From NCBI GenBank assembly GCA_947089855.1, contig CAMUML010000023.1, positions 1 to 61,099 on the forward strand: 61,099 bases of DNA, read 5' to 3'. Positions 5,118 through 43,808 of this stretch are shown here, piece by piece. The notes below the pieces were generated by a model. It had not been told where the DNA came from, did no database searches, and worked only from the letters and a program-made list of their open reading frames with translations. Within the stretch, counting starts at the first letter, position 1; the number at the start of each line of letters is the position of its first letter. Source of the DNA: an uncultured Eubacterium sp. (GTDB lineage: Bacteria; Bacillota; Clostridia; Lachnospirales; Lachnospiraceae). The position numbers and the translations under genes are program-made.

Positions 5118-5168
5118 TATAAAAAAGCAGTCTCAAAAAGTGTACTTTTTGAGACTGCTTTTTTTTCT
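5118..5168 (+). terminator. Hairpin with U-tract ahead of TnpB-like gene 1
   Basis: An A-tract, a perfect stem (GCAGTCTCAAAAAG pairing with CTTTTTGAGACTGC, loop TGTA) and a run of eight or more T form a textbook intrinsic terminator. The A and T tracts on both sides would let it work in either direction. Its stem is also the left member of a pair of palindromes flanking the promoter of the TnpB-like gene. The corresponding hairpin in island II is at 37888-37930. Confidence 0.8.
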
Positions 5169-5285
5169 TCAAACCGAGCTATATTCTAATATAATATCGT
5201 CAAAAAGTCAAGGAAGTTAACCCCATTTTTTTAGTAATTTTGCTCAAAAAAATTTTTGTCTCAAAAAGTACACTTTTTGAGACAA
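5124..5285 (+). promoter_or_regulatory. Conserved palindrome-flanked leader of TnpB-like gene 1
   Basis: Two palindromes with half-site GTCTCAAAAAGT (centres near 5141 and 5271) bracket about 105 bases. The interior holds a probable promoter, TTCAAA near 5167 and TATAAT near 5190, 16 bases apart, and an extra half-site TCAAAAAGT near 5200. The whole segment is nearly identical to 37891-38050 upstream of the second TnpB-like gene, although the two proteins differ at about 30 percent of positions. This indicates a shared regulatory region, a remnant transposon end, or recent homogenisation. Confidence 0.6.
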
Positions 5286-5341: not shown

Positions 5342-6670
5342 ATGGCGTTGGAACAGGGCAAGCTATGGAAAACCATATGCCAGCAGAACCAGGAGCCTGT
5401 ACCGCAGGAAGATATGGAACGGCTGCTAGAAGTGGCCCGCGGCTATCAGGCGGTGAAAAATTATGTGTACCAGCGCTACGGCAGCATCAAAAGCCTTTCC
5501 AAAATCTACCCCGGCTATACCGTGCAGAATGAAATGACAAAGAGCGGGCTGCGGGAGCGCCTGGGGGTGCCGTCCGTCTATTTTTACCTGTCTATTTTCG
5601 ATGCGCTTGGCGACATTAAAAGCCAGTGGACACGGACCAAGTCGGCCGTAGGCAAACGGCTGGAACAAAACAGGGGCTTTTCACCGCAAGAAAAGCACTA
5701 TCTGCGTTTCCTGTTAAAAGTCAGCAATGCCTTTGCGCAGGTGTTAAACGGGGAAACTGTAGAACTCAAAAAAGGGGTGCAAACACAGTACCGGGCGCTG
5801 GCAGCAGAGGTAGATACGGATAGGCTGTGCCGCTACCTATGCCGCCAGGTACGCAAGCATCATGTAAAACTGCATACAAACTGTGCATCCGGCTTTTCCC
5901 TTTCTGAACGGGCCTACCGGTATGGAGACCACGGGATCTATGTATCTGTAAAAGAAAAGCGCAGGCGTGTATTTATCCCTTTGACAGACAGCCATGCATA
6001 TACGCGGCAGCTATATTTGAAATTATATCCGCAGGAAGGGAATGTGGAAATCCGCGTCCCGGTTGCAGTCAATATCCGCCACCATGCAGACTATACCAGC
6101 CAGGTTGGTTTGGCGCTGGGCATGTATACAATGCTGACGACCGATGAGGGGCATTGCTATGGGCAGCGGCTGGGGGAATACCAGTCTGCCTATACCGAAT
6201 GGCTAAGGATGCAGCTAGCAGCCCGCCAGCGCAGCCAGGGGCAGGGTGGCGGGCGTAAAAAGTACCATGCCAGGAAACGGCGGTACGAAGGGCAGCTCCA
6301 CAGCTATATTAACCAAGAATTAAACCGCTTTCTCAAAGAAGAAAAGCCAGGGGCCATTTATATCCAGAAATTTCCAAAGCCGCAGGCTGGCGGCGGCAAT
6401 AAACAGGTCAATTATGCCGTGTCGCTTTGGCAGCGCGGCTATATCCGCAGAAGGCTTTTGTATAAGTGCAGGAAAGAGTCCATCACAGCTATAGAAGTAT
6501 TCGGAAAAGGCATCAGCATCGAATGCAGCGCCTGCGGGGCAGCAGGCACAAAAAAAGACGGAATTTTTACCTGTGCCGTATGCGGGTTGGGGATACCTGA
6601 GAAAGTAAATACGGCCCGGAATGCAAAAAAGCGGGGGCAGGGGGATGGGGCAATCAGATACCAGTCATAA
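5342..6670 (+). CDS. TnpB-like protein 1, predicted nuclease-dead
   Basis: A 442-residue protein of the IS200/IS605 TnpB/Cas12-ancestor fold. The C-terminal half has the RuvC-like layout with a zinc ribbon (CSAC and CAVC, residues ~396-414) and the terminal NTARNAKKRG motif. All three catalytic acids appear lost: the RuvC-I Asp is Ala258 (VGLALGM), the RuvC-II Glu is Gln342 (AIYIQKFPKP), and the RuvC-III Asp position is Lys421 (EKVNTARN). No TnpA transposase is nearby. The start is placed at 5342, or TTG 5348, by alignment with the second copy and a GCAGGGGGG ribosome site; the frame stays open upstream through the palindrome, but no start there is convincing. A structured RNA follows immediately. 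By analogy with TldR proteins it may be an RNA-guided DNA-binding repressor; this is inference. Confidence 0.8.
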   Translation: MALEQGKLWKTICQQNQEPVPQEDMERLLEVARGYQAVKNYVYQRYGSIKSLSKIYPGYTVQNEMTKSGLRERLGVPSVYFYLSIFDALGDIKSQWTRTKSAVGKRLEQNRGFSPQEKHYLRFLLKVSNAFAQVLNGETVELKKGVQTQYRALAAEVDTDRLCRYLCRQVRKHHVKLHTNCASGFSLSERAYRYGDHGIYVSVKEKRRRVFIPLTDSHAYTRQLYLKLYPQEGNVEIRVPVAVNIRHHADYTSQVGLALGMYTMLTTDEGHCYGQRLGEYQSAYTEWLRMQLAARQRSQGQGGGRKKYHARKRRYEGQLHSYINQELNRFLKEEKPGAIYIQKFPKPQAGGGNKQVNYAVSLWQRGYIRRRLLYKCRKESITAIEVFGKGISIECSACGAAGTKKDGIFTCAVCGLGIPEKVNTARNAKKRGQGDGAIRYQS

Positions 6671-6675
6671 AGGCG

Positions 6676-6976
6676 GCTTCTTAGATAAATCCAGCACAGG
6701 CCGGGTTTTACCGCAAGGACTAAGCAAGTGCCTATGATAAGCAGGGGACGTGCAGCGGCTAGGCTGCCTTTTGGCAGTACCGGCAGGCTGTACCTGCCAT
6801 AGAAAAACAGCAAACGGCATTAGAAGGCAGGCGTTGCCTGCGCATTGGGTATGCCAAGACCCTGCGAACATGCCGCTGCACGATTCTGATTTTGTCCGGA
6901 TGGTGTAGCCCATGAGGTAGCAGGGAGCGAAGCGGGCAGTCCCGCATTATCTGCAAAGCCAGATAACCAATATGCC
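6676..6976 (+). ncRNA. Structured RNA downstream of TnpB-like gene 1 (candidate guide RNA)
   Basis: This ~300-base stretch has no gene. It aligns with 39396-39606 and contains helices kept by compensatory change: CTTAG/CTAAG (6680-6684, 6720-6724; CTTGG/CCAAG in copy 2), GCAGGC/GCCTGC (6827-6832, 6836-6841; GCAGC/GCTGC in copy 2), GCGGG/CCCGC (6932-6945) and TTATCTG/CAGATAA (6947-6953, 6960-6966; TTGCCTG/CAGGCAA in copy 2). GGCAT at 6816-6820 can pair with ATGCC at 6851 or 6972. Copy 1 has extra hairpins at 6755-6797. Its place directly 3' of a TnpB-like gene is that of an omega/guide RNA scaffold. The A-rich bases after 6977 would then be the guide. It could instead be a leader of the downstream transferase mRNA. 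Confidence 0.65.
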
Positions 6977-7109
6977 TTATTATAAAATAAAAGAAGGGCA
7001 TTTTTGCAAGCAGCCGGACGGCTGTAAAAAAATTGAAGCAGAAAGCAAAGGGGATATAAAAACAGTTCCGCGAAAAAAGTGGAAACAAACCAAGAGGGTA
7101 GCACCGGCT

Positions 7110-8225
7110 ATGAAATTAAAACATTGTACGATAGATGAATTTGCACAAAGGACACAGGATAAAAAAATCGTGTGTTTTGGCGCTTATGTAATGCCATTAA
7201 GCCTGTGCAATGAATTTGAAGGATACCATTTTGAAAACCGGATTGCCTATCTGGTGGATAATGACAAGAAAAAGCATGGGACGGATTTTTGCCTGCCAAA
7301 TGGGCAGGTTAGGGAAATCCTTTCGGTAGGGCAGTTTGTAAGCCGGGCGGATAGCCAGACCGTGCTGCTAATTACAAGCGATTATTTTGCAGCGATTATC
7401 GGGCAGCTGGACCAATACCGGGAACTAGACCGATTGCCCTGCTATATCTATCCGTTTATGAAATATGATATGGAATACCCGGACAAGATACCATTAAAGC
7501 ACGCGGGCCAGCCGCTGATCCCAAAAACAATCCATTATTTTTGGTTTGGCAGGAATAAAAAAAACAGCCTAATGGAGCAGTGTATCCAAAGCTGGAAGAA
7601 GTTCTGCCCAGATTACAGGATCATAGAGTGGAATGAGGACAATTACGATATAACCAGGCATAAGTTTATGGAACAGGCATATAATTCCGGGAAATATAGC
7701 TTTGTTACAGACTATGCCAGGCTGGATGTTGTAAACCGCTATGGAGGTATTTACTTTGATACGGATGTAGAGGTGATAAAAAATATAGATGGCTTGCTGT
7801 ATAACGAAGCATTTTTTGGGCTGGGCACTTATGGGAGGATAGCTACCGGGCTGGGCTTTGGCGCAGTAAAGCAGCAAAAAGCGGTACAAAAGCTATTAGA
7901 GGCATATGGCCGGTTTTCATTTCTCAAAGAAGATGGGTCGTATGACCTGCGGACGAATACGATACGGGAGGCGCCCGTATTCCAGGAACTGGGCCTAATG
8001 CAAAAAAATAAATTCCAGATGGTTGCAGGCGCATCGGTCTTCCCATCGGATGTTATGTCCCCGCAGATACCGGGGTTCCATTCTTACCGGACGACCTGCA
8101 ATACGGTAACGGTACACCACAATGGATTCTCATGGGCCAGCGGGGCGCAGAAAGAGGAATTTGAAAGGTCGAAAGATGCATATGAAACGATCCGGGCAAG
8201 GTTTTGCCAGGAAGGGGAAGATTGA
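7110..8225 (+). CDS. GT32-family glycosyltransferase with N-terminal Rossmann-like domain
   Basis: A 371-residue cytoplasmic transferase. Residues ~1-125 form a Rossmann-like domain (KIVCFGAYVMPLSLC, YLVDND). Residues ~135-340 are an Och1/GT32-type catalytic domain opening IPKTIHYFWFG, with WNEDNYD and the metal-binding motif GGIYFDTDVEVI (DxD) near residue 215. The ATG at 7110 is chosen for the upstream AAGAGGG and because it aligns with the paralogue at 39710. It is the first gene of a transferase trio repeated in island II. The sugar donor and acceptor are unknown; GT32 members often use GDP-mannose or UDP-hexoses. Confidence 0.85.
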   Translation: MKLKHCTIDEFAQRTQDKKIVCFGAYVMPLSLCNEFEGYHFENRIAYLVDNDKKKHGTDFCLPNGQVREILSVGQFVSRADSQTVLLITSDYFAAIIGQLDQYRELDRLPCYIYPFMKYDMEYPDKIPLKHAGQPLIPKTIHYFWFGRNKKNSLMEQCIQSWKKFCPDYRIIEWNEDNYDITRHKFMEQAYNSGKYSFVTDYARLDVVNRYGGIYFDTDVEVIKNIDGLLYNEAFFGLGTYGRIATGLGFGAVKQQKAVQKLLEAYGRFSFLKEDGSYDLRTNTIREAPVFQELGLMQKNKFQMVAGASVFPSDVMSPQIPGFHSYRTTCNTVTVHHNGFSWASGAQKEEFERSKDAYETIRARFCQEGED

Positions 8226-8255
8226 TAAAAATAGATAGGCCAGCGGGGAGCCATT

Positions 8256-8357
8256 TATACTGCACACCAGTTAAATTTATAGTATAACCTGACTGCAGAC
8301 CGCCAGCCAGGCGCTTTCTTAGTTGTATTACTGTACATTCTGGCGGTTTGCAGTATA
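8256..8357 (+). repeat. 102-bp palindromic repeat, copy 2
   Basis: Perfect nine-base terminal inverted repeats (TATACTGCA and TGCAGTATA) enclose the same internal hairpin as the copies at 2565-2665 and 34910-35011. It fills the gap between the GT32-like gene and the CDP-glycerol-transferase-like gene. Island II has no such element at the equivalent place (40838-40937), so it inserted after the duplication or was lost there. Confidence 0.85.
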
Positions 8358-8395
8358 GAAAACAAGTTTGCCGACAAGGGGAGGGGGTATGGCAT

Positions 8396-9946
8396 TTGCG
8401 CAGGATGGAACAAAAACAGCTGGTAGACGTACTTGCCACCGTTTGGCATGGCATAGAAATGGTACCGGGCAAAAACCTGGATCCAGCTTCTGCGAAGGAA
8501 ATATTGGGAGAGTGCTGTAGGGCATTTGACGTAATCGGGGAAGCGGCAGAGAAAAGTGCGGCGCATGAAAGGCTGCCTTTATACCAGTCGGCCATACAAA
8601 AAGCAAAAAGGGGCATACAGGGTTTAGGGCAAGCCCTACAACGGCCAGAAGCAGGGCAAGGCCCACAGCATCCAGAAGCAGGGAAAAGCCTGGCGCAGCC
8701 TACAGCACTGCTGCCGCAGCTTAAACAGGATATAGAAAATTTGAAACAGGTGATCCTAGAAGAAACAAAGATCGAATATGCCATATTGTTCCTGCCCTAT
8801 AAAGCAAGCATGTGGGATTCGATGGAATCCATATGGCGCAGTGCAAAAGAAGACCCAAGGTGCAGCGCCTATGTCGCACCGGTCCCTTATTTTGACCGCA
8901 GCCCGGACGGTTCCTTTGGGCAGATGCACTATGAAGGCAGCCTGCTGCCGGATTATGTAGAGCTAACCGACTGCAGCAACCTGCACCTTGAGCTGCTCCA
9001 GCCGGATGCTATCTATATCCACAACCCTTATGATGACTGCAACTATGTGACTTCGGTACACCCGGCATTTTATTCTGGGGAGCTGAAAAAATATACCGGC
9101 CTTTTAGTATATGTATCATATTTCATAGCCGGTGTGTACAGCTCGATGGAAACAGCCTCTGTTTTTTGCCAGTCGCCGGGGATGGTGAATGCAGACCTTA
9201 TTATTGCACAATCAAACGTACATAAGCAGCTGCTGGCGGGAAACGGCAACCATCCAGGTAAAATAGCAGTGCTTGGAAGCCCGAAACTGGATTATGCCAT
9301 CAACCATATCAAGGATGCGCAGATACCGGAAGAATGGAGCGCAAAACTGGCAGGGGATACGGTATTCCTGGTATGCAGCAGCATTGGCCTGTTCCTGGCA
9401 TGGGAAAAAATGATGGATATTCATAGCGGGCTGCTGGATATGCTGCTCAACCGCTATCATGCTGCTGTTATCTACCGTCCACACCCGCTTTTGGAAGCAA
9501 CACTGCAGTCTATGCGCCCAGGCCAGTACAGCCGGTTTCAGGCATTCCTTTCCAAATATAAAGGGCATCCCAAATTTATATTAGATAAAACTGGCGATTT
9601 TATACCGGCAGCAGCAGCCTCCAACTGCCTGATCAGCGATTACAGTTCCGTCTGCTTTTCCTATGAGGCCATCGGCAAGCCCGTAGCCATGATGACCGAT
9701 GGGCCGCCGCCCGCGGACAACTATTACTTTGCTTTTGATTACCGCGGCGTTTCTTTTATCAATGTACAGGATTATTTTGATAAAAGCATGGATGGAGACG
9801 GGGCGCTGGAGCAATTTGTTTCACAGGTCATGGCAGGCAATGATTTTGGGAAGGAAACAAGGATGCAGATACTAAAACAGTCTGGCATATCCTTGGATGG
9901 CAAAAGCGGGGACAGGATACATAAGTATGTTATGGATTTATTATAA
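8396..9946 (+). CDS. CDP-glycerol glycerophosphotransferase-like protein
   Basis: A 516-residue protein. The N-terminal ~120 residues are a variable, partly Pro/Gln/Ala-rich helical segment. The rest matches the TagB/TagF-type fold, with VIYRPHPLLE near residue 356 and CLISDYSSVCFSYEAIGKPV near residue 412, where the D-Y-S-S motif binds the nucleotide diphosphate. It may transfer glycerol phosphate or another CDP/CMP-linked group to the growing glycan. The TTG at 8396 is preferred: GGAGGGGG lies eight bases upstream and the product then starts like its island II paralogue (ATG 40938). An upstream ATG at 8348 falls inside the 102-bp repeat and is unlikely. The transferred group is not known. 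Confidence 0.78.
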   Translation: MRRMEQKQLVDVLATVWHGIEMVPGKNLDPASAKEILGECCRAFDVIGEAAEKSAAHERLPLYQSAIQKAKRGIQGLGQALQRPEAGQGPQHPEAGKSLAQPTALLPQLKQDIENLKQVILEETKIEYAILFLPYKASMWDSMESIWRSAKEDPRCSAYVAPVPYFDRSPDGSFGQMHYEGSLLPDYVELTDCSNLHLELLQPDAIYIHNPYDDCNYVTSVHPAFYSGELKKYTGLLVYVSYFIAGVYSSMETASVFCQSPGMVNADLIIAQSNVHKQLLAGNGNHPGKIAVLGSPKLDYAINHIKDAQIPEEWSAKLAGDTVFLVCSSIGLFLAWEKMMDIHSGLLDMLLNRYHAAVIYRPHPLLEATLQSMRPGQYSRFQAFLSKYKGHPKFILDKTGDFIPAAAASNCLISDYSSVCFSYEAIGKPVAMMTDGPPPADNYYFAFDYRGVSFINVQDYFDKSMDGDGALEQFVSQVMAGNDFGKETRMQILKQSGISLDGKSGDRIHKYVMDLL

Positions 9947-9960
9947 GAAAGAGGGGGACC

Positions 9961-11142
9961 GTGGCAGCCGAACCATTTATATCGGTGATTATGCCGGTTT
10001 ATAATAATGAAACTTATTTACCGATTGCTGCAAAAAGTGTATTAGGCCAGGGGGTTGCGCAGCTGGAGCTGATTATTATTGATGACGGTTCCACAGACCG
10101 CACGCCTGTAGTGGCAGACCAGATAGCTGCCAGTGATAGCCGGGTAAGCGTTTTGCACCAAAAAAACCAGTGGATTTATGCGAGCTTTAATCATGGCATA
10201 GCCGCTGCGCGCGGCAAGTATATTTATATCCTAAATTCCGACGATACGTTAAGGCAGGGGGCACTGCCGCTGCTGTGCCACTGGGCACAACGTTACCAGC
10301 CGGATGTGGTGTGGACAAAGGTATTGCCTCACCTGTGTGACAGCCGCCAGCGTATTTTAAAATATGATATTTACGGCTATGGCAGGCTGGTGGAGGAAGA
10401 CCGCTATTATGCAGATGAACAGGCGGTAAGGGAAAATTGGCTGTATTTTTACCGGTCCAAACTGGCGTTTAACCAGGCAAACTTATACCGTAGGCAGATT
10501 GCCGCAGCCCATCCGTTCCGCAACGACGTATATGGGGCAGACCAATTTTTTAACCTATCCATTGCACCGGATGTCAAGTCAGCTGTAGTATTGCGTGAAC
10601 CGGTTTATGACCATTTCCTTTATGAAGCGGAAGGGATGAATGTTTCCAAAGGGAATTATTTTGGGTATGAACACCGTATGTTCAATGAATTATATGAGGC
10701 ATACACGGCCTTGTTCCGCTCCTGGGGGCTGTTAGGCCAGGAAGCGTCGGATGTATTTGCTGCTATGCGCCTAAATAACTTGACCAATGAAATCCGCAGC
10801 CTGTCCGCGAAACGGTGCCCGCTAGGTTTGGAGCAAAAACTGGAAAAAGTCTTTTCCGAATCCATCGATGAAACCGTATACCAATGTGCGGCCTCCACTG
10901 GGAGGATGGAAGAACTAAACAGCCGGGTACTGTCTGGCTGCCGGGAGCTGCTTTGTGCAGGGGCTGGGCAAAACCTGGGCCAGTACCAGTTTGTGTACGA
11001 CTATCTGGATTCTATGCTGCGGTATGAAAAAACAGAAACGGACTGGGAAAAGATCAAACGGGCAGTTTTCCATAAAAGGAACCCATACCGGATCGGTAAA
11101 AATTTTTATGACAAGCTGTTGGCGGCGGGCCATGTACAGTAG
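9961..11142 (+). CDS. Family 2 glycosyltransferase
   Basis: A 393-residue GT-A enzyme. The N-terminal ~110 residues have the GT2 pattern: ISVIMPVYNNE, LIIIDDGSTDRTP and the DxD-like YILNSDDT. The C-terminal half is an extended region found only with this subgroup. It starts at GTG behind GAGGGGG, 14 bases after the preceding stop, so it is co-transcribed. It is the third member of the trio duplicated in island II (42618-43808). Donor and linkage are unknown. Confidence 0.87.
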   Translation: MAAEPFISVIMPVYNNETYLPIAAKSVLGQGVAQLELIIIDDGSTDRTPVVADQIAASDSRVSVLHQKNQWIYASFNHGIAAARGKYIYILNSDDTLRQGALPLLCHWAQRYQPDVVWTKVLPHLCDSRQRILKYDIYGYGRLVEEDRYYADEQAVRENWLYFYRSKLAFNQANLYRRQIAAAHPFRNDVYGADQFFNLSIAPDVKSAVVLREPVYDHFLYEAEGMNVSKGNYFGYEHRMFNELYEAYTALFRSWGLLGQEASDVFAAMRLNNLTNEIRSLSAKRCPLGLEQKLEKVFSESIDETVYQCAASTGRMEELNSRVLSGCRELLCAGAGQNLGQYQFVYDYLDSMLRYEKTETDWEKIKRAVFHKRNPYRIGKNFYDKLLAAGHVQ

Positions 11143-27142: not shown

Positions 27143-28204
27143 ATGGCAGAAAATATTAGGATGGATTCCCACAAATTGATCTACCACCCGCAGGTGGTGG
27201 CCAGATGGGCGGCTGGGGAGGATATTTATCCCATTGAGTTGGAAGTTGGCCTGACAAATGCATGCAACCACCGCTGCACGTTTTGTGCGGTCGACTATAC
27301 AGGCTACCAGGCCAACTACATAGACAGCCGGATGCTTCTTAGCAACCTGCAGGAACTGGCACCAAAAGGCGTAAAAAGTATTATTTATGCAGGGGAGGGA
27401 GAGCCGCTGCTGCACAAAGATGCCCCAGATATGATAAACCGGACAAAAAGCTACGGTATCGACGCAGCCATGTCGACCAATGGGGTACTGCTAAAGCCGG
27501 AGGTTTCCAGAGAATGCCTAAAATCCTTGACTTGGGTGCGGTTTAGTATGTCAGGCATTCAAGAAAAAACTTACCACAGCATCCAACGTGGCAGGGAAGG
27601 GGATTTATCCAGGGTGCTTTCTAATATCCAGGAAGCAGTAAAGGTAAAAAAAGACCAGGGCCTGCAGACAACGTTAGGGGTACAGCTTTTGCTCTTGCCG
27701 GAAAACAAAGATGAAATTGTGCAGATGGGGAAAGAACTAAGGAGCATTGGTGTCGATTATTTTACGGTCAAGCCTTTTTCCAAACATCCGCAAAGCGGAA
27801 ACTTGGTGCAGGTAGACTACAAAGAAATGCTGGAACTGGAAAGTGAAGTAGCAGGGCTTAAAACCGACAGCTTCCAAGTTTATTTCCGGGCGCATTCCAT
27901 GAAAAAGCTGGAGTGCAAAAGAAGTTACCAGCATTGCTGGGCACTGCCGTTTATGGTTTATTTGGATGCCAAAGGCAACCTGTGGCCATGCATTGTATTT
28001 ATGGGGAAAGAAGAACTAAAGTACGGGAATATATATGAACAGACATTTGTAAAAATATGGGAAGGCAACCATAGGAAAAGCATAAATGATTATTTTATGC
28101 ATATGGACCTGGAACAAAACTGCAGGGAATTATGCCGCCTAGATGAGATGAACCGGTATTTAAACGAGCTGGTATATCCAGGCGCGCATGTCAATTTTAT
28201 ATAG
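27143..28204 (+). CDS. Radical SAM/SPASM enzyme 1
   Basis: A 353-residue radical SAM protein. The cluster motif is NACNHRCTFC near residue 38. A C-terminal SPASM-type cysteine set is visible (KRSYQHCWALPF, LWPCIVFMG, QNCRELCRLDEM). It is a tandem paralogue of the next gene; both share WHLDRV/YHPQVV-like N-termini and AGEGEPLLH/IGEGEPTLN. In a sugar-nucleotide array a role in radical dehydration, epimerisation or oxidation of a sugar is plausible, but no family with known function was recognised. Confidence 0.78.
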   Translation: MAENIRMDSHKLIYHPQVVARWAAGEDIYPIELEVGLTNACNHRCTFCAVDYTGYQANYIDSRMLLSNLQELAPKGVKSIIYAGEGEPLLHKDAPDMINRTKSYGIDAAMSTNGVLLKPEVSRECLKSLTWVRFSMSGIQEKTYHSIQRGREGDLSRVLSNIQEAVKVKKDQGLQTTLGVQLLLLPENKDEIVQMGKELRSIGVDYFTVKPFSKHPQSGNLVQVDYKEMLELESEVAGLKTDSFQVYFRAHSMKKLECKRSYQHCWALPFMVYLDAKGNLWPCIVFMGKEELKYGNIYEQTFVKIWEGNHRKSINDYFMHMDLEQNCRELCRLDEMNRYLNELVYPGAHVNFI

Positions 28205-28287
28205 CAGTATTGTCTTAGGCAAAAGGATATGCGCAGCCATTTTGCGCCAACAGCAAGTTTATCGGATAGCAGGTAAGGAGGACAAAA

Positions 28288-29367
28288 ATGGATAAGTATA
28301 AAATGGGGGGACATAAATTATTATGGCATCTAGACCGGGTGCTGGCTTGGCAGAAAGGGGAACGTATTGCGCCACTGTCGATTGACGTCGGCTTAAGCAA
28401 AGGCTGCAATATCCGCTGCGAGTACTGTTTTGGGCAGATGCAGGGCAATGGGTATAAAGATAAGGCAAACATTATCTTTCCGCGCGAGGCGCTGTTAAAT
28501 TATGTGCGCGATGCCGGAAAACTGGGGGTACGTTCCATGGCCCTAATAGGCGAAGGGGAACCGACCCTAAACCCGGCAGTGTACGATGCAATAATCGAAG
28601 GCAAAAAGGCCGGCGTGGATATGGCTTTAGGGACAAACGGCATTCTATTTGATAAGGGCAGCAAAGGGGAGGAGGCATTAAAAAACCTGACCTGGATCCG
28701 TTTTAATTTAAGCGCCGCATCTAAAGAAGCGTATCAAAGGGTACATAACAGCGAAATGTTTGATACGGTAATGGATAAGATTTCATTTTGCGTAGCGACA
28801 AAGAATAAGTACCACCTGCCAGTAACGATTGGCCTGCAGATGGTGCTTACGCCAACCAATGTAGACCAAGTTGTGCCGTTGGCAAAATTAGGGGCAGGCC
28901 TGGGGGTAGACTATTTTGTTGTAAAACAATGTTCCGATGTAAAAGACAATACATTAGGGGTTTATTCTAAACTGGGCGAATACCAGAATTTCAGCGATTT
29001 ATTAAAAGCGGCCGAAGCAGAAAGCAATGAACGCTATAATGTAATTATCAAATGGCAGCATATTACCAATGAAGGAAAAAGAAATTACAAACGGTGCTTA
29101 GGTGCCCCATTTTTCTTGTATTCCAGCGGCGATGGCAGGCTTTATCCATGTGGCATGTTTTTTGACAAATATGAAGAAGAATACCGCCTGGGCGACCTGA
29201 CCAAACAGTCGTTTCCGGAGATCTTGCATAGTGAACGCTATTGGGAAGTGATGAAAAAAGTAGCAGAAATTGATACCGATACCTGTTATACCAACTGCCG
29301 CACGCATATGATCAATGATTTTGCATGGCAGATCAAAAATCCGCCGGAGCATATTAATTTTGTTTGA
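28288..29367 (+). CDS. Radical SAM/SPASM enzyme 2
   Basis: A 359-residue radical SAM protein with cluster motif KGCNIRCEYC near residue 37 and a C-terminal cysteine set (KRCLGAPFFLY, LYPCGMFF, DTCYTNCRTHM) of the SPASM type. It is paralogous to the preceding gene and starts with an AAGGAGG site eight bases before ATG. The pair probably acts on the same pathway or on successive intermediates. Confidence 0.78.
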   Translation: MDKYKMGGHKLLWHLDRVLAWQKGERIAPLSIDVGLSKGCNIRCEYCFGQMQGNGYKDKANIIFPREALLNYVRDAGKLGVRSMALIGEGEPTLNPAVYDAIIEGKKAGVDMALGTNGILFDKGSKGEEALKNLTWIRFNLSAASKEAYQRVHNSEMFDTVMDKISFCVATKNKYHLPVTIGLQMVLTPTNVDQVVPLAKLGAGLGVDYFVVKQCSDVKDNTLGVYSKLGEYQNFSDLLKAAEAESNERYNVIIKWQHITNEGKRNYKRCLGAPFFLYSSGDGRLYPCGMFFDKYEEEYRLGDLTKQSFPEILHSERYWEVMKKVAEIDTDTCYTNCRTHMINDFAWQIKNPPEHINFV

Positions 29368-37887: not shown

Positions 37888-37930
37888 AAAGGCCGTCTCA
37901 AAAAGTACACTTTTTGAGACGGCCTTTTTT
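37888..37930 (+). terminator. Hairpin with U-tract ahead of TnpB-like gene 2
   Basis: AAAGGCCGTCTCAAAAAG pairs with its complement ending GACGGCCTTT around a short loop and is followed by seven Ts. Compared with 5118-5168 the central part of the stem (GTCTCAAAAAG) is the same, but the base pairs at the foot differ (GGCC/GGCC against GCA/TGC), a paired change showing selection for the stem. Confidence 0.8.
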
Positions 37931-38050
37931 TCTTCAAATCGAGCTATATTCTAATATAATATCGTCAAAAAGTCAAGGAAGTTAACCCCATTTTTTTAGT
38001 AATTTTGCTCAAAACAAAATTTGTCTCAAAAAGTGTACTTTTTGAGACAG
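37891..38050 (+). promoter_or_regulatory. Conserved palindrome-flanked leader of TnpB-like gene 2
   Basis: This is the counterpart of 5124-5285. The interior between the palindromes differs at only about one to six bases over ~100, with the same TTCAAA (37934) and TATAAT (37956) promoter elements and the same internal TCAAAAAGT half-site. The second palindrome (38022-38049) lies about 40 bases before the TnpB-like start and has no T-run, so it is more likely a protein site or leader hairpin than a terminator. Confidence 0.6.
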
Positions 38051-38086: not shown

Positions 38087-39385
38087 ATGGCAATGCCGCC
38101 GGAAAAGGTATGCAAGATGGTGCGCCAGATCAATCAACGGCCAGTTCCAAAAGAAGATATGGAACGCCTGTTGGCCGTTGCGAAGGATTACTGTGCGGTA
38201 AAAAATTACGTGTACCAGCGTTACGGCGGCATCCGCAGCCTTTCAAAGCTGTACCCAGGGTATACCGTCCAAAATGAAATGACCAAAAGCGGCCTGCGTT
38301 CACAGCTTGGCCTTCCTTCCGTCTATTTTTACCTGGCCGTATTTGATGCGCTGGGGGATATTAAGGCCCAGTGGTCACGGACAAAAACCGTGCTGTTAAA
38401 ACATATCAGCCAAAACAGCGGATTTACGCCGCAGGATAAGCATTACCTAAGGTTCCTTTTAAAAGCCGGGGATGCAATGGGCCAGGTGCTATGCGGCAGG
38501 CCGGTGGAGCTGGGCCAGGGGCTGCAGCAGCAGTACGTGCGTCTCTCCCAGGAAGTAGATACCGCCAGGCTGTGCCGTTACTTATGCCGCCAGGTGCGCA
38601 GGAACCATAAAAAGCTGCAGACACAGGATACATCCGGTTTTTCCGTGTCAGAGCGTGCCTACCGGTATGGGGGCCACGGGGTCTACTTATCGGTCAAGGA
38701 AAAGCGCAGGCGTGTCTTTGTGCCGCTGACCGACAATAACCAGTATAAACGCCAGCTCTATGTCAAGCTGTACCCGCAGCAGGGCAATATCTGCATCCAT
38801 GCCCCAGTAGATGTCCGTGTTCACAGCCATCCGGATTACCGCAGGGAGGTTGGCCTTGCACTCGGCATGTTTACCATGCTGACTACAGACGAGGGGCACC
38901 CGTATGGGGAAGCATTTGGCAGCTACCAGTCCAGCTACAGCAGCTGGCTATGCGGGCAGGCAGCTGTGCGCCGCCAAGGCAGCGGGGGCAGGGGCAAGAA
39001 ATACCTTGCGAAAAAAAGGCGCCTGGAAAGTCAGCTGCACAGCTATATTAACCAGGAGCTCAACCGGTTTTTGCGCGAAGAAAAACCGCAGGCCGTCTAT
39101 ATTCCAAAATTCCCAAAACCGCAGGCAGGCGGCTGGGACAAAAAGGCCAACCAGGCGGCAGCCTTATGGCAGCGTGGATATATCCGCAGGCGTCTTGCAC
39201 AAAAATGCAGGGAGGAATCGGTCGCCTTTGTCGAAGTTTTTGGAAAAGGCATCAGCCGGGAGTGCAGCCAATGCGGGGCGCAGGGAATAAAAAAAGACGG
39301 AGCCTTTAGCTGCCCGGTATGTGGGTTTAAAGCAGAAGAAAAGACAAATACCGCCCGCAATGCAAAGAAGCGGGGCCGGGTTTAG
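38087..39385 (+). CDS. TnpB-like protein 2, predicted nuclease-dead
   Basis: A 432-residue paralogue of the protein at 5342, about 70 percent identical by eye. The RuvC positions are again non-acidic: VGLALGMFTML has Ala for the first Asp, AVYIPKFPKP has Pro for the Glu, and EEKTNTARN has Lys for the last Asp. The zinc ribbon (CSQC, CPVC) and the N-terminal region (YVYQRYG, PGYTVQNEMTKSGLR) are conserved, so the fold and RNA/DNA binding are kept while cleavage is lost. ATG 38087 or 38093 follows AGGAAGGGG. A structured RNA follows and no TnpA is present. Function as an RNA-guided repressor is inferred. Confidence 0.8.
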   Translation: MAMPPEKVCKMVRQINQRPVPKEDMERLLAVAKDYCAVKNYVYQRYGGIRSLSKLYPGYTVQNEMTKSGLRSQLGLPSVYFYLAVFDALGDIKAQWSRTKTVLLKHISQNSGFTPQDKHYLRFLLKAGDAMGQVLCGRPVELGQGLQQQYVRLSQEVDTARLCRYLCRQVRRNHKKLQTQDTSGFSVSERAYRYGGHGVYLSVKEKRRRVFVPLTDNNQYKRQLYVKLYPQQGNICIHAPVDVRVHSHPDYRREVGLALGMFTMLTTDEGHPYGEAFGSYQSSYSSWLCGQAAVRRQGSGGRGKKYLAKKRRLESQLHSYINQELNRFLREEKPQAVYIPKFPKPQAGGWDKKANQAAALWQRGYIRRRLAQKCREESVAFVEVFGKGISRECSQCGAQGIKKDGAFSCPVCGFKAEEKTNTARNAKKRGRV

Positions 39386-39395
39386 CCATAAGGGC

Positions 39396-39606
39396 CCTGC
39401 TTGGATGAACAACGGCGCAAGCCGGGGTTTTACCGCAAGGACCAAGCAGGCGCCCATAAAATAGAAAAACAACCATCGGCATTAGAAGGCAGCAAAGCTG
39501 CGTATTGGGTATGCCAAGACCACGTGAACATGCGGGTGCATGATGTAGCGGGGAGCGAAGCGGGAAAGCCCGCATTGCCTGTATCAGACCAGGCAACCAA
39601 TGTGCC
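39396..39606 (+). ncRNA. Structured RNA downstream of TnpB-like gene 2 (candidate guide RNA)
   Basis: This is a compact counterpart of 6676-6976. Helices: CCTGCTTGG/CCAAGCAGG (39396-39404, 39442-39450), GCAGC/GCTGC (39489-39493, 39497-39501), GCGGG/CCCGC (39560-39573) and TTGCCTG/CAGGCAA (39575-39581, 39590-39596). The single-stranded connections, such as TTTTACCGCAAGGAC, GGGTATGCCAAGACC and GGGAGCGAAGCGGG, are nearly unchanged between copies, the pattern of a functional RNA. The A-rich bases after TTATTA (39607 onward) would be the guide if this is an omega RNA. The rest of the gap to 39709 has no gene. Confidence 0.65.
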
Positions 39607-39709
39607 TTATTAAAAAAATAAAGAAGGCAGCAGTGCCACAGGCAAATGGCCTGGAGGCCCATATTGTAAATGGGGCTAGCAAAAACCCCATACAGTTTTG
39701 GAGGGGGCT

Positions 39710-40837
39710 ATGGAATTAAAACATTGTTCAGTTCAAGAATTTGCACACAGGACAGCAGATAAAAAAATTATCTGCTTTGGCGCCTATGTCATGCCCCTTA
39801 GCCTATGCAGGGAATATGAAGAATACCATTTTGAAGACCGGATCCTTTACCTCGCGGACAACGATCAACAAAAACAGGGGAAGGAATTTACCTTGCCTGG
39901 CGGTAAGAAACGCAAGATTATTTCGGCCAGGCAGCTGGTGGAACTTGCAGATAACGATACCGTACTGATTATTACGAGCGACTATTTTGCCGCGATCATA
40001 GAACAACTGGACAAATATCCGCAGCTGGACCATATGCACTGCTATATCTACCCTTTTATGAAATATGATATGGGGCATACGGAACAAATCCCTGCCCGGC
40101 ACAGCACTACGCTCCAAATCCCAAAAACCATCCACTGTATCTGGTTTGGGAAAAAGCCAAAAACAGGGCTGATGGAACAGTGTATCTGCAGCTGGAAGAA
40201 ATATTGCCCGGATTACGAAATAATCGAATGGAATGAAGATAATTATGACATTTCCAAAAACCCATTTATGAAGGCATCCTATGATGCTGGAAAATACGGC
40301 TGCGTTTCGGATTATGCCAGGCTGGATATTGTCTGCCAGTATGGAGGCATATATTTTGATACTGATGTAGAAGTTATTAAAAATATTGACAGTATGCTTT
40401 ATAATGAAGCGTTTTTTGGGTTCGGGAACTACGGCCGCGTTGCCACAGGGCTTGGTTTTGGGGCAGTAAAGCAGCACAAGGTGGTTAAAAAACTGCTGGA
40501 AGCCTATGGTTCTTTTACCTTCGACCAGGGCGCCGGGCTATGGGCACAGGCAACCAATACCATAAGGGAAGAGCCAGTGTTCCTGGAACTGGGCCTAAAA
40601 CCCAAAGATATGTTCCAGACAGTAGGCGGGGCCAGCATATTTCCATCGGATTTTATGGCACCAATGATACCAGGCTTTTGTAGCAGCAGGATTACCTGCA
40701 ATACCATTACCATCCACCATAACCGGTTTTCCTGGGCGTCCAAAGAACAGCTCCAGGAATTTCAAAAGTCCGGAAACGAATACGAAAACATCCGCAGGCG
40801 GTTTCAGGAGGGTGAAGCCGCAGAGGGGGATTTGTAA
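39710..40837 (+). CDS. GT32-family glycosyltransferase, island II copy
   Basis: A 375-residue paralogue of the protein at 7110, with the same two-domain plan: a Rossmann-like N-terminus (IICFGAYVMPLSLC) and a GT32 catalytic domain (IPKTIHCIWFG; GGIYFDTDVEVI). The ATG at 39710 follows GGAGGGGG. High similarity, roughly 70 percent by eye, with the island I copy suggests the same donor type. It heads the second transferase trio, directly after the structured RNA. Confidence 0.86.
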   Translation: MELKHCSVQEFAHRTADKKIICFGAYVMPLSLCREYEEYHFEDRILYLADNDQQKQGKEFTLPGGKKRKIISARQLVELADNDTVLIITSDYFAAIIEQLDKYPQLDHMHCYIYPFMKYDMGHTEQIPARHSTTLQIPKTIHCIWFGKKPKTGLMEQCICSWKKYCPDYEIIEWNEDNYDISKNPFMKASYDAGKYGCVSDYARLDIVCQYGGIYFDTDVEVIKNIDSMLYNEAFFGFGNYGRVATGLGFGAVKQHKVVKKLLEAYGSFTFDQGAGLWAQATNTIREEPVFLELGLKPKDMFQTVGGASIFPSDFMAPMIPGFCSSRITCNTITIHHNRFSWASKEQLQEFQKSGNEYENIRRRFQEGEAAEGDL

Positions 40838-40937
40838 ACATCCATTAAAATTTTGCCCTGCGCTAGCAAAAATCAGTCAGCGCATAATATGAATTTCCGC
40901 CCATATGGAGTACGAAAGCAAGGAGATGGATAATACC

Positions 40938-42563
40938 ATGAGGAAGATGGAGCAAAAAAAGCTGATAGGGCTTTTAGATGCAGTAAAACGCGGCACATGC
41001 GCTGCAGCACAGGGCGGCTTTCAGGCAGAATCCGCTAGTATATTGGAAGACTGCCTTGCCGCTTTGGGGGCAATGGAAGAAACCATATGCAGGGATGTTT
41101 CCAAGGGCCGCAGCATCGTATACCAGGCAGTGCTTGGCAGGGCAAAAAGCAGCATGGAAGCCGTCCGCCGGTTTATACAGGCAACTACGCCTGAAAATAC
41201 AGCCGATGGAAAACGCGGCAATATAGGCTGTCCATCAGAAACCGGGGGTGCTGTACCTGTGCAAAACGCTCCCGAAAAACCATCTTCAGCGGATGCAGCT
41301 GTCCAAAAAAACATAGGGCAGTGCCTGGAAGCCGTGGCAAAACTGCGGGATGAGCTGCTTGCGGAAAAGGAAATCCAGTATCTTATTTTCTTCCTGCCCT
41401 ATAAAGCAAGCATGTGGGATTCTATGGAGTCTATCTGGATGGCCGCAAAAGAAGACCCGCGCTGTACCGCCTGCGTAGCCCCAATCCCTTATTTTGACCG
41501 CATCCAGGACGGTTCCTTTGGTGAATTGCATTACGAAGGCAGCCTGCTGCCGGGCTACGTAGATATTGTAGACTGTACAAAACTGGATTTTGAACAGATA
41601 CGTCCAGACGCCATATATTTCCACAACCCTTATGACGGGGGCAACTATGTAACATCCGTCCATCCAGCCTTTTATTCCAGCGAATTAAAAAAATATACGG
41701 ATTTATTAATCTATGTGCCGTACTTTATCCCAGGGGTTTACGAATCGGCGCAAGGGGCGGCTGCATTTTGCCAGGTGCCTGGCATGTACCAGGCGGACTG
41801 TATCATTGTGCAGTCGCAGGTACAAAAAACGCTGCTGGCTGCAAACGGGCACAATCCGGATAAAATCGCAGTGCTTGGAAACCCAAAGCTGGATTATGTA
41901 GTAAACCATAGCAACGGTACCAAAGCCCCATCTGGCTGGCAGGAGCGGCTGCAGGGGAAAAAAGTATTCCTGGTCTGTATCAGCGTCGGCCCGTTCCTTG
42001 GCGTAGATAGGACAATTGAACTCTACAGCCAGATGGTGGAAAGCCTGATCAGCCAATACCATGCGGCAGTCATCTACCGTCCGCATCCGCTGCTGGAAGC
42101 AACCATCCGGTCTATGCGCCCGCACAAGTATGCACAGTACCAGGCTTTCCTCCAAACATACAGCCAGAATGAAAACTTTGTACTGGATCTTTCCGGTGAC
42201 CCAATGGCAGCAGTCTGCGCTTCCAATTTTATGATCAGCGATTACAGTTCCCTCTGCTTTTCTTATGCCGTTACACGCAAGCCGGTAGCAATGGCCATAT
42301 GGGGCGACCATAAGGAAGTGCTTACAGACAGCCTGTATTACGCATTTGACTACCGCGGGATTTATTTTATTAATATTACCCAATATATGGAACAGGATAT
42401 ACTGCCAGAAGACTTTTTCCGTTTTGCTTCCGATATGATGGCCGGGAAAGATGCCCAAAAAGAAAGGCGGATGGCACTGATCCAAAAGTCGGTAGTAAAC
42501 CTGGACGGTACAAGTGGCAGGAAAATACATGGGTATATTATGGAAAAACTAAAGCTGGGGTAG
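40938..42563 (+). CDS. CDP-glycerol glycerophosphotransferase-like protein, island II copy
   Basis: A 541-residue paralogue of the protein at 8396. The catalytic part is well conserved (FFLPYKASMWDSMESIW, AVIYRPHPLLEATIRSMR, MISDYSSLCFSYAVTRKPV), while the N-terminal ~140 residues diverge and are of uneven composition. An AAGGAG site precedes ATG 40938; starts at 40926 or 40905 are less likely. The donor is probably a CDP- or CMP-activated group, which in this island could even be CMP-legionaminate, but that is speculation. Confidence 0.78.
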   Translation: MRKMEQKKLIGLLDAVKRGTCAAAQGGFQAESASILEDCLAALGAMEETICRDVSKGRSIVYQAVLGRAKSSMEAVRRFIQATTPENTADGKRGNIGCPSETGGAVPVQNAPEKPSSADAAVQKNIGQCLEAVAKLRDELLAEKEIQYLIFFLPYKASMWDSMESIWMAAKEDPRCTACVAPIPYFDRIQDGSFGELHYEGSLLPGYVDIVDCTKLDFEQIRPDAIYFHNPYDGGNYVTSVHPAFYSSELKKYTDLLIYVPYFIPGVYESAQGAAAFCQVPGMYQADCIIVQSQVQKTLLAANGHNPDKIAVLGNPKLDYVVNHSNGTKAPSGWQERLQGKKVFLVCISVGPFLGVDRTIELYSQMVESLISQYHAAVIYRPHPLLEATIRSMRPHKYAQYQAFLQTYSQNENFVLDLSGDPMAAVCASNFMISDYSSLCFSYAVTRKPVAMAIWGDHKEVLTDSLYYAFDYRGIYFINITQYMEQDILPEDFFRFASDMMAGKDAQKERRMALIQKSVVNLDGTSGRKIHGYIMEKLKLG

Positions 42564-42617
42564 AGAAAGTATTTTTAGCAAAGCAATAAAGGAACGCAGG
42601 CAATGCAGGAGGGGCAG

Positions 42618-43808
42618 ATGAAGCCGTTAATTTCTTTTATTATGCCAGTCTACAACAATGAAACCTATTTCCAGGCAGCCGTAGAAAGCGTGCTGGGTCA
42701 GGGGGATGCCAATATCGAACTGGTGATTATAGACGATGGCTCGACGGACCAGACGCCGCAGATTGCAGACCGGTATGCTGCCGCAGATGCCAGGGTAAAA
42801 GTGGCTCACCAGGAAAACCAGTGGATTTATGCCAGCTTTAACAACGGGATACGGGCAGCGGAAGGCGAATATATCTACATATTAAATTCCGATGATAGGC
42901 TGCGGGACGGTTCGGTTCCGCTGCTGTGCCAAACAGCCCTCACATACCGCCCCGATGTCGTATGGACTAAGGTGCTGCCGCATAGCTGCGATGCCAGGCA
43001 GCAGGTAACCGCCTATGATGTTTACCACTACGGCAGGCTGGTGCAGCAGGATATGGCCTGTTTGGATACTGCGTCGGTAAGGGCAAACTGGCTGTATTTT
43101 TATACATCAAAGCTGGCATTTAACCAGGCAAACTTATACCGCAGGGAACTGGCGCTGCGCCACCCATTCCGCAACGATGTGTATGGGGCTGACCAGCTGT
43201 TTAATCTGTCAATTGCACCAGACGTCCAGTCGGCCGTTGTGTTAAAAGAGCCGGTATATGACCACTTCCTCTATGAAGCAGATGGCATGAACGTTTCCAA
43301 AGGGAACTATTATGGTTATGAGCACCAGATGTTCCATGAAATCTACCAGGGGTATGTAGAGCTGTTCCGTTCGTGGGGCCTTTATGATAAAAAGACAGCC
43401 GGTTTATTTGCGGCCATGCGCCTTAACAATGTCACCAACGAAATCAGGAGCCTTTGCTCTAAGCGGTGTGCATTGCCAATTAAAAAGAAGCTGGAAAAAG
43501 TATTTACTGAGACGCTGGACAGCCTGGTATGGGATTGTGCAGTAAAGGCAGGCAGGGTAGAAGAGCTGAACGCCAGGGTGCTTTCCGGCTGCCGTGAACT
43601 GCTGGTACAAGAATGGCTGCAGGGTCACGGGGATATACAGTCGCTGGGGGAGTACCGGTTTGTCTATGATTATCTGGAAGCAGTGCTGCGGTATGAAAAG
43701 ACGGAGGAAGACTTAGAAAAGATGCGGCATGCGGTGTTCCATAAGCGGAACCAGTACCGTATTGGGCATATGTTTTATGAGAAATTGTCAGGAAGCAAAA
43801 AATGGTAA
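42618..43808 (+). CDS. Family 2 glycosyltransferase, island II copy
   Basis: A 396-residue paralogue of the GT2 protein at 9961: FIMPVYNNETYFQAAVESVL, LVIIDDGSTDQTP and YILNSDDR. The ATG at 42618 lies four bases after GGAGGGG; 42603 is an alternative five codons earlier. The C-terminal domain includes an insertion relative to the island I copy (QEWLQGHGDIQSLG). It closes the duplicated trio. Confidence 0.86.
   Translation: MKPLISFIMPVYNNETYFQAAVESVLGQGDANIELVIIDDGSTDQTPQIADRYAAADARVKVAHQENQWIYASFNNGIRAAEGEYIYILNSDDRLRDGSVPLLCQTALTYRPDVVWTKVLPHSCDARQQVTAYDVYHYGRLVQQDMACLDTASVRANWLYFYTSKLAFNQANLYRRELALRHPFRNDVYGADQLFNLSIAPDVQSAVVLKEPVYDHFLYEADGMNVSKGNYYGYEHQMFHEIYQGYVELFRSWGLYDKKTAGLFAAMRLNNVTNEIRSLCSKRCALPIKKKLEKVFTETLDSLVWDCAVKAGRVEELNARVLSGCRELLVQEWLQGHGDIQSLGEYRFVYDYLEAVLRYEKTEEDLEKMRHAVFHKRNQYRIGHMFYEKLSGSKKW

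Follow-up and report, generated by a model that had tools for sequence, protein, structure and literature searches.

The tnpB-like gene, its family and the operons behind it

The window analysed here is a 61,099-nucleotide stretch of contig CAMUML010000023.1 (assembly GCA_947089855.1) from an uncultured Eubacterium sp. of the Lachnospiraceae. It carries at 5342..6670 (copy 1) a gene that appears to encode a domesticated, nuclease-dead TnpB-like protein of the TldR type in a surface-glycan setting. A preliminary description had placed a TnpB-like open reading frame (ORF) at this position, and its limits were found as described (ATG at 5342, stop at 6668-6670, 442 amino acids). The TldR-like reading is supported by the protein itself, a covarying RNA, conserved synteny and words with flanks resembling a target-adjacent motif (TAM) at other surface loci.

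The protein has the TnpB fold, as judged by comparison with TnpB and Cas12f structures (8h1j, 8j3r), and was matched by the profile guided_TnpB (E = 2.5e-12, short of the curated cut-off). The preliminary description had proposed the loss of three RuvC acids, at Ala258, Gln342 and Lys421, and had suggested an alignment to active TnpB. In an alignment with a TnpB fragment from the same genome, Ala258 and Lys421 each lay opposite an Asp, and Lys421 did so again by hhalign and in a comparison with Cas12f proteins. According to our reading of the strand pattern, Gln342 occupies the position expected for Glu; the automatic alignment set it a few residues off register, facing a Lys. Across 44 aligned family members (both window copies included; L041, with an internal stop, excluded), the column composition was A33/S11 at 258, V23/P13/A6/Q1/I1 at 342 and K43/R1 at 421, and cysteines 395, 398, 411 and 414 were present in all 44. 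The loss of the three acids, none of the 44 members being acidic when the Glu column is set by the strand pattern, was thus confirmed, as was the proposed retention of the zinc ribbon and overall fold.

A canonical TnpB fragment in the window's genome (L225 1480-2139; G000:C6) has Asp at both tested positions, which suggests that a copy from an ordinary TnpB lineage persists there as well; hhalign of the protein against another fragment of this genome, L227, gave no match. A whole-genome search for Y1 TnpA returned three pieces, one of which carried two stops; none lay on the window's contig, in agreement with the absence of a TnpA gene noted in the preliminary description, or beside the other own copies (the serine TnpA of IS607 was not searched). 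With no intact RuvC D-E-D, no Y1 TnpA partner and paralogues only 66-69% identical, the gene does not correspond to an active IS200/IS605 or IS607 TnpB element. It appears to be separated from its transposase and stably linked to non-transposon genes: the own copies have no Y1 TnpA, and relatives (at whose loci TnpA was not searched) keep the RNA and the place at the head of an operon.

That the gene heads a glycan locus had been correctly recognized: glycan genes lie downstream of copy 1, and a further glycan operon within the window is headed by copy 2. The two operons (6972-11142 and 39698-43808), each preceded by a dead TnpB and a promoter segment of its own, share the gene order DXD glycosyltransferase, Glyphos-like, GT2-like (partly by eye for copy 2). 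The ORF listing starts the first glycan gene of locus 1 at 6972, within the candidate guide. Downstream genes checked by Pfam, including those at relatives' loci, were for the most part glycan genes; at Dorea locus L011, three of the five genes checked had no Pfam match, the first two among them, and some loci appeared by eye to head surface-protein genes.

The genome holds four copies of the gene, two of them within the window; the others are 66-69% identical to copy 1. In one tblastn scan, named genomes yielded 211 relatives, and the 80 listed among them come from records titled Lachnospiraceae, Dorea, Clostridia and similar; no relatives were found in viral contigs in one scan with this single protein. 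Seven copies each were counted in Sporofaciens musculi and isolate B50_50, three in Schaedlerella and four in Dorea sp. 5-2, the fourth seen as two adjacent matches. The gene is rare, being present in 6 of the 250 genomes sampled from the family and in 3 of 61 relatives (own genome counted in both). Frames of at least 436 residues were observed at nearly all of the 86 loci scanned; internal stops were flagged in L041, L211, L213, L218, G238 and the truncated L009.

The adjoining RNA and the upstream promoter segment

A conserved RNA with covarying pairs directly follows the gene on its 3' side, and its three core motifs were present in all 80 loci examined (L041, L061 and L072 left out). Its consensus fold, derived from 39 sequences with long RNAs such as that of L004 omitted, comprises 52 pairs, 41 of which show compensated changes. 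Downstream regions were aligned for 85 of the 86 loci, duplicates or truncated loci (L005, L006 and L009) having been dropped beforehand, and the RNA end was placed at 83 of the 86 (none for L040, L071 and L084). The order at the 3' end is a stem, CCAAT, RTRYYTTATT and an A/T-rich variable sequence. We infer that this RNA acts as a guide RNA bound by the protein.

Some loci deviate from this arrangement. Another word, ATATCGGYTATAAA, follows the CCAAT end in L050, L071 and L072, and L050 has two successive CCAAT ends. By eye, the guide RNA of S. musculi (L034/L115, ~1640-1800 of L115) contains three near-identical stem-loop-like repeats, so the scaffold seems tolerant of large expansions. The core motif was not found in L129, L133 and L143, remote copies (52% identical) that may depend on another RNA and on other words. 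Rfam gave no match at the gathering score, and weak matches concentrated on the AT palindrome.

Upstream, three own copies carry a pair of 26-bp palindromes at exactly 128 bp spacing, with a promoter between them. The 102-bp segments were 92-95% identical among these three loci, their proteins being only 66-69% identical. Both promoters in the window are directed away from the gene (OFF); in L007, of the same genus, the same promoter is directed toward it (ON), and the half-palindromes are, by eye, swapped as inversion predicts. Repeats scoring at least 16 were present at 49 of the 86 loci scanned (36 OFF, 5 ON and 8 undecided, including other repeat kinds at L047, counted as OFF, and at the undecided L007, L024, L026, L043, L063 and L072), and 28 loci gave no repeats. 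The promoter between the inverted repeats was seen in both orientations among related genomes rather than within one strain, and the segment is a putative invertible (phase-variable) promoter. The fourth own copy begins at the very start of contig C3, and contig C64 terminates at the same palindrome; such breaks are what inversion or a repeat would produce. A tyrosine recombinase gene adjoins the tnpB-like gene at 12 places (L008, L129, L029, L046, L059, L065, L077, L078, L085, L133, L135 and L143), at a distance of 97-444 bp in the eight measured (L008 from coordinates).

Table 1. Features of the two loci in the window (a point marks features given without a strand).
Feature	Position	Strand	Remark
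Hairpin, perfect 21-bp stem around left 26-bp palindrome	5121..5164	.	terminator-like by eye
Left inverted repeat GTCTCAAAAAGTGTACTTTTTGAGAC, locus 1	5130..5155	.	repeat search
Putative invertible promoter segment, 102 bp, locus 1	5156..5257	.	92-95% identical at three loci of this genome
Promoter-like TTGACT-17-TAGAAT, facing away from tnpB-like gene (OFF)	5183..5211	-	inverted in L007
Right inverted repeat GTCTCAAAAAGTACACTTTTTGAGAC, locus 1	5258..5283	.	128 bp from left repeat
Nuclease-dead TnpB-like (TldR-like) gene, copy 1	5342..6670	+	ATG 5342, stop 6668-6670, 442 aa
Guide-RNA-like scaffold, locus 1	6671..6971	+	ends in CCAAT (6967-6971)
Candidate guide ATGCCTTATTATAAAATAAA, locus 1	6972..6991	+	predicted; extent uncertain
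First glycan gene, locus 1, DXD glycosyltransferase	7110..8225	+	start 7110 suggested by comparison with copy 2
Second glycan gene, locus 1, Glyphos_transf-like	8348..9946	+	profile match
In-ORF site TAGTATATGTATCATATT	9105..9122	+	one mismatch from site motif
Left inverted repeat, locus 2	37895..37920	.	repeat search
Promoter segment, 102 bp, locus 2, OFF	37921..38022	.	TTGACT-17-TAGAAT on - at 37976-37948
Right inverted repeat, locus 2	38023..38048	.	repeat search
Nuclease-dead TnpB-like gene, copy 2	38087..39385	+	68% identical to copy 1
Guide-RNA-like scaffold, locus 2	39386..39601	+	ends in CCAAT
Candidate guide GTGCCTTATTAAAAAAATAA, locus 2	39602..39621	+	predicted; extent uncertain
First glycan gene, locus 2	39710..40837	+	homologous by eye to first gene of locus 1
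Second glycan gene, locus 2, Glyphos_transf-like	40905..42563	+	profile match

Site words and candidate targets

In 16 of the 86 loci, none of which holds a Glyphos gene within the stretch fetched, the word following CCAAT occurs again 37-205 nt further downstream, preceded by AAGTWTAT. Within the 86 loci, the motif had 18 exact matches and the reversed pattern 0. Genome-wide, 25 exact matches were found in seven of eight gene-bearing genomes, 13 in leaders of tnpB-like loci and 12 elsewhere. Eleven of the latter had context: eight lay before a same-strand ORF, two overlapped a frame start and one was inside an ORF. The genes concerned looked by eye like glycan, teichoic-acid or surface genes, and one like a sulfate-activation gene (Pfam check on own contig C21 only).

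Guides matched the leader sites of other loci over 10 nt exactly at 7 of 24 sites, versus 3.8 expected (P = 0.037). The 24 sites comprise 21 plus L135, L138 and L208, added by hand; L061 and L072, whose RNA end is unreliable, were excluded from this and from the guide/upstream comparison, and one of the seven cross-matches (L022 by L220) was found only once the site was known. For none of the sites in G067, G292, G293, G297, L207 (G296) and L208 (G295) did the search yield an exactly matching guide.

The secondary repeats were also considered as extra crRNA-like guide units, which was dropped in view of their TAM-like flank and their recurrence before operons without the gene. For the in-ORF motif Y[IV]PYF, pure coincidence was first favoured; a codon test then pointed to selection in a subset. 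In a glycan operon of the window's genome with no tnpB-like gene in the stretch (L091 1500-1860; G000:C21 ~28003-28360), an apparent decayed nucleotidyltransferase start was seen by eye between two site-like words. A genome of another family, in which no tnpB-like gene was detected at E 1e-10, has a pair of exact site motifs separated by 4.5 kb (G049:C4:151946-156476), one of them GTGCCTTATT.

Proposed mechanism, alternatives and known systems

The best explanation as a whole, to which we assign a probability of about 0.57, would be a phase-switched complex of the TldR type that represses other surface operons. When the upstream invertible promoter flips toward the gene, the gene and the adjacent ~300-nt guide RNA would be made, on a transcript continuing into the surface-glycan operon. 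The protein-RNA complex would bind short TAM-flanked sites (AAGTWTAT + RTRYYTTATT) in the leaders of other surface operons, perhaps also within their early ORF, and block their transcription; a cell turning one glycan locus ON would thereby tend to silence chosen others. This reading is supported at the sequence level by a TnpB fold without the acids, the covarying RNA, conserved synteny, both promoter orientations among relatives and the flanked words elsewhere, from which we infer RNA binding, the exact guide boundary, DNA binding, repression and mutual exclusion. The new RNA-guided control of glycosylation envisaged in the preliminary description thus stands as to a nuclease-dead TldR-like protein in a surface-glycan setting (protein, RNA, synteny, words); the RNA-guided repression is a prediction. 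More tentatively, the loci might form a mutual-exclusion (allelic-exclusion-like) code, each phase-variable glycan locus having its own dead TnpB and guide. A hierarchy of guide and site words would then let the ON locus silence specified others while sparing itself; in S. musculi, loci with GTGCC would rank above those with GTATC, and these above the ATATT locus.

A number of results weigh against the best explanation. With one mismatch allowed, the eight genomes gave 55 matches versus 58 for the reversed pattern, so the signal there is carried by exact matches only; these had no reversed exact control, and leader sites were already known in five of the eight motif genomes before the scan. 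Ten of the 12 exact non-leader matches have all-A/T words, and only one, in the window's genome, equals a guide exactly; among the four guides of this genome, only that of L002 has an exact TAM-flanked match (90%-complete assembly). Site words GTATTTTATT and GTATTATATT have no matching guide in their respective genomes, the gene-bearing G025, G100, G103, G153, G238 and G009 have no exact motif match, and synonymous positions of the ORF site vary freely at many loci. The cross-match excess is modest and non-significant at 11-13 nt (P 0.21-0.28), as is the deficit of own-site matches (0 versus 1.4 expected, P = 0.22). Confidence in both the best explanation and the exclusion code is reduced because one-mismatch matches equal the reversed control and the all-A/T words lack an exact guide.

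The protein and RNA might instead be a cis-acting antitermination or leader regulator of the long operon to which they belong, with the shared word serving as a promoter or processing element; UpxY occupies the corresponding place in Bacteroides capsule operons. The RNA does sit between gene and operon, several sites lie shortly before an ORF in a promoter-like place, and the many site words without a matching guide, like the all-A/T non-leader sites, would fit. We consider this unlikely, since different conserved sequences precede the word in RNAs and in sites and, where the gene is absent, the exact motif does not rise above background (23 exact matches in 244 gene-free family genomes and 8 in 58 relatives, both resembling the reversed controls), which a plain promoter would leave unexplained unless its factor co-occurs. 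Slightly less probable still is a reading in which the variable word pairs with the hairpin loop GTATG of the scaffold, in a pseudoknot or a repeat:anti-repeat, and the guide starts only after TTATT. Despite full pairing with the loop in 62 of 79 loci, and A/G and C/T variation compatible with wobble, the pseudoknot was set aside as the principal explanation: 12 of 12 T-to-G loop changes lose the pair with no compensation, and the same word recurs elsewhere with a TAM-like flank.

It is improbable that the complex controls inversion of the upstream promoter, and not transcription of other loci. Gene and promoter segment are constant neighbours and recombinase genes stand beside some copies, but guides did not match the 450 nt upstream at their own loci any better than shuffled guides did (77 loci), and no exact 12-bp inverted repeats were found near the adjacent recombinases in the eight loci examined. 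Hardly credible is a TnpB remnant that is decaying or moves passively and has no regulatory function: the lack of TnpA beside own copies and the internal stops in a few relatives would agree with decay, but long open frames at nearly all scanned loci, constant non-acidic columns, the covarying RNA and stable synteny would not.

The preferred reading, TldR-type repression of other surface operons, has several parallels. The capsule loci of Bacteroides fragilis have invertible promoters, UpxY/UpxZ and protein antitermination. They resemble the present loci in the invertible promoters before surface-polysaccharide operons, the regulator in first place and the action of one locus on others (here predicted), and differ in that antitermination by a protein is replaced here by an RNA-guided DNA-binding fold. 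IS200/IS605 TnpB and Cas12f (8h1j, 8j3r) share the fold and zinc ribbon, and the 3' RNA is as in TnpB; unlike in these, the RuvC acids are absent in 44/44 aligned members and no TnpA lies beside own copies.

The preliminary description had named fliC and oppF as the settings of known TldRs, and oppF-linked TldRs are indeed known. Its list was incomplete: a 2026 paper (PMC13418256) also describes TldRs linked to csrA/fliC, accompanied by hin genes and by upstream promoter inversions of ~120 bp, including one strain with four TldR loci predicted to cross-target. These are a close parallel to the glycan-linked loci. With the flagellin TldR, guides down to 6 nt were enough for reduced motility (PMC13418256), so 10-nt words could act. 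As in the fliC-TldR of Enterobacter flagellin-remodelling prophages (PMC13418256), a nuclease-dead TnpB and guide RNA are tied to a surface-structure gene; that system is prophage-borne, with an alternative flagellin and reported repression, whereas here the gene heads long glycan/surface operons and repression is predicted. The csrA-associated TldRs of Oscillibacter/Flavonifractor (PMC13418256) likewise show several loci per genome, predicted cross-targeting, in-ORF targets and upstream promoter inversions. They involve flagellin, the serine invertase hin and a promoter dependent on FliA, in contrast to the palindromic 26-bp repeats, sigma-70-like promoter, tyrosine recombinases beside some loci and surface glycans found here. 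TldRs are known beside fliC and beside csrA, those beside csrA with inversions and predicted cross-targeting (PMC13418256), and the glycan-linked TldR-like family may be new; no description of such a family with palindromic promoter repeats was found in the literature searched, the clade list of the founding 2024 TldR paper not having been compared.

Found together at the head of several surface-sugar gene clusters, the disarmed TnpB, the guide-like RNA and the flippable promoter suggest a role for RNA-guided switches in choosing the cell's sugar coat. If this is true, transposon-derived RNA-guided transcription factors would recurrently run phase-variable surface structures, here the glycans of gut Lachnospiraceae, not flagella. 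Guide words and leader sites would form a readable code telling which coat shuts out which others, and the rules behind exclusive surface expression could be put to direct test.
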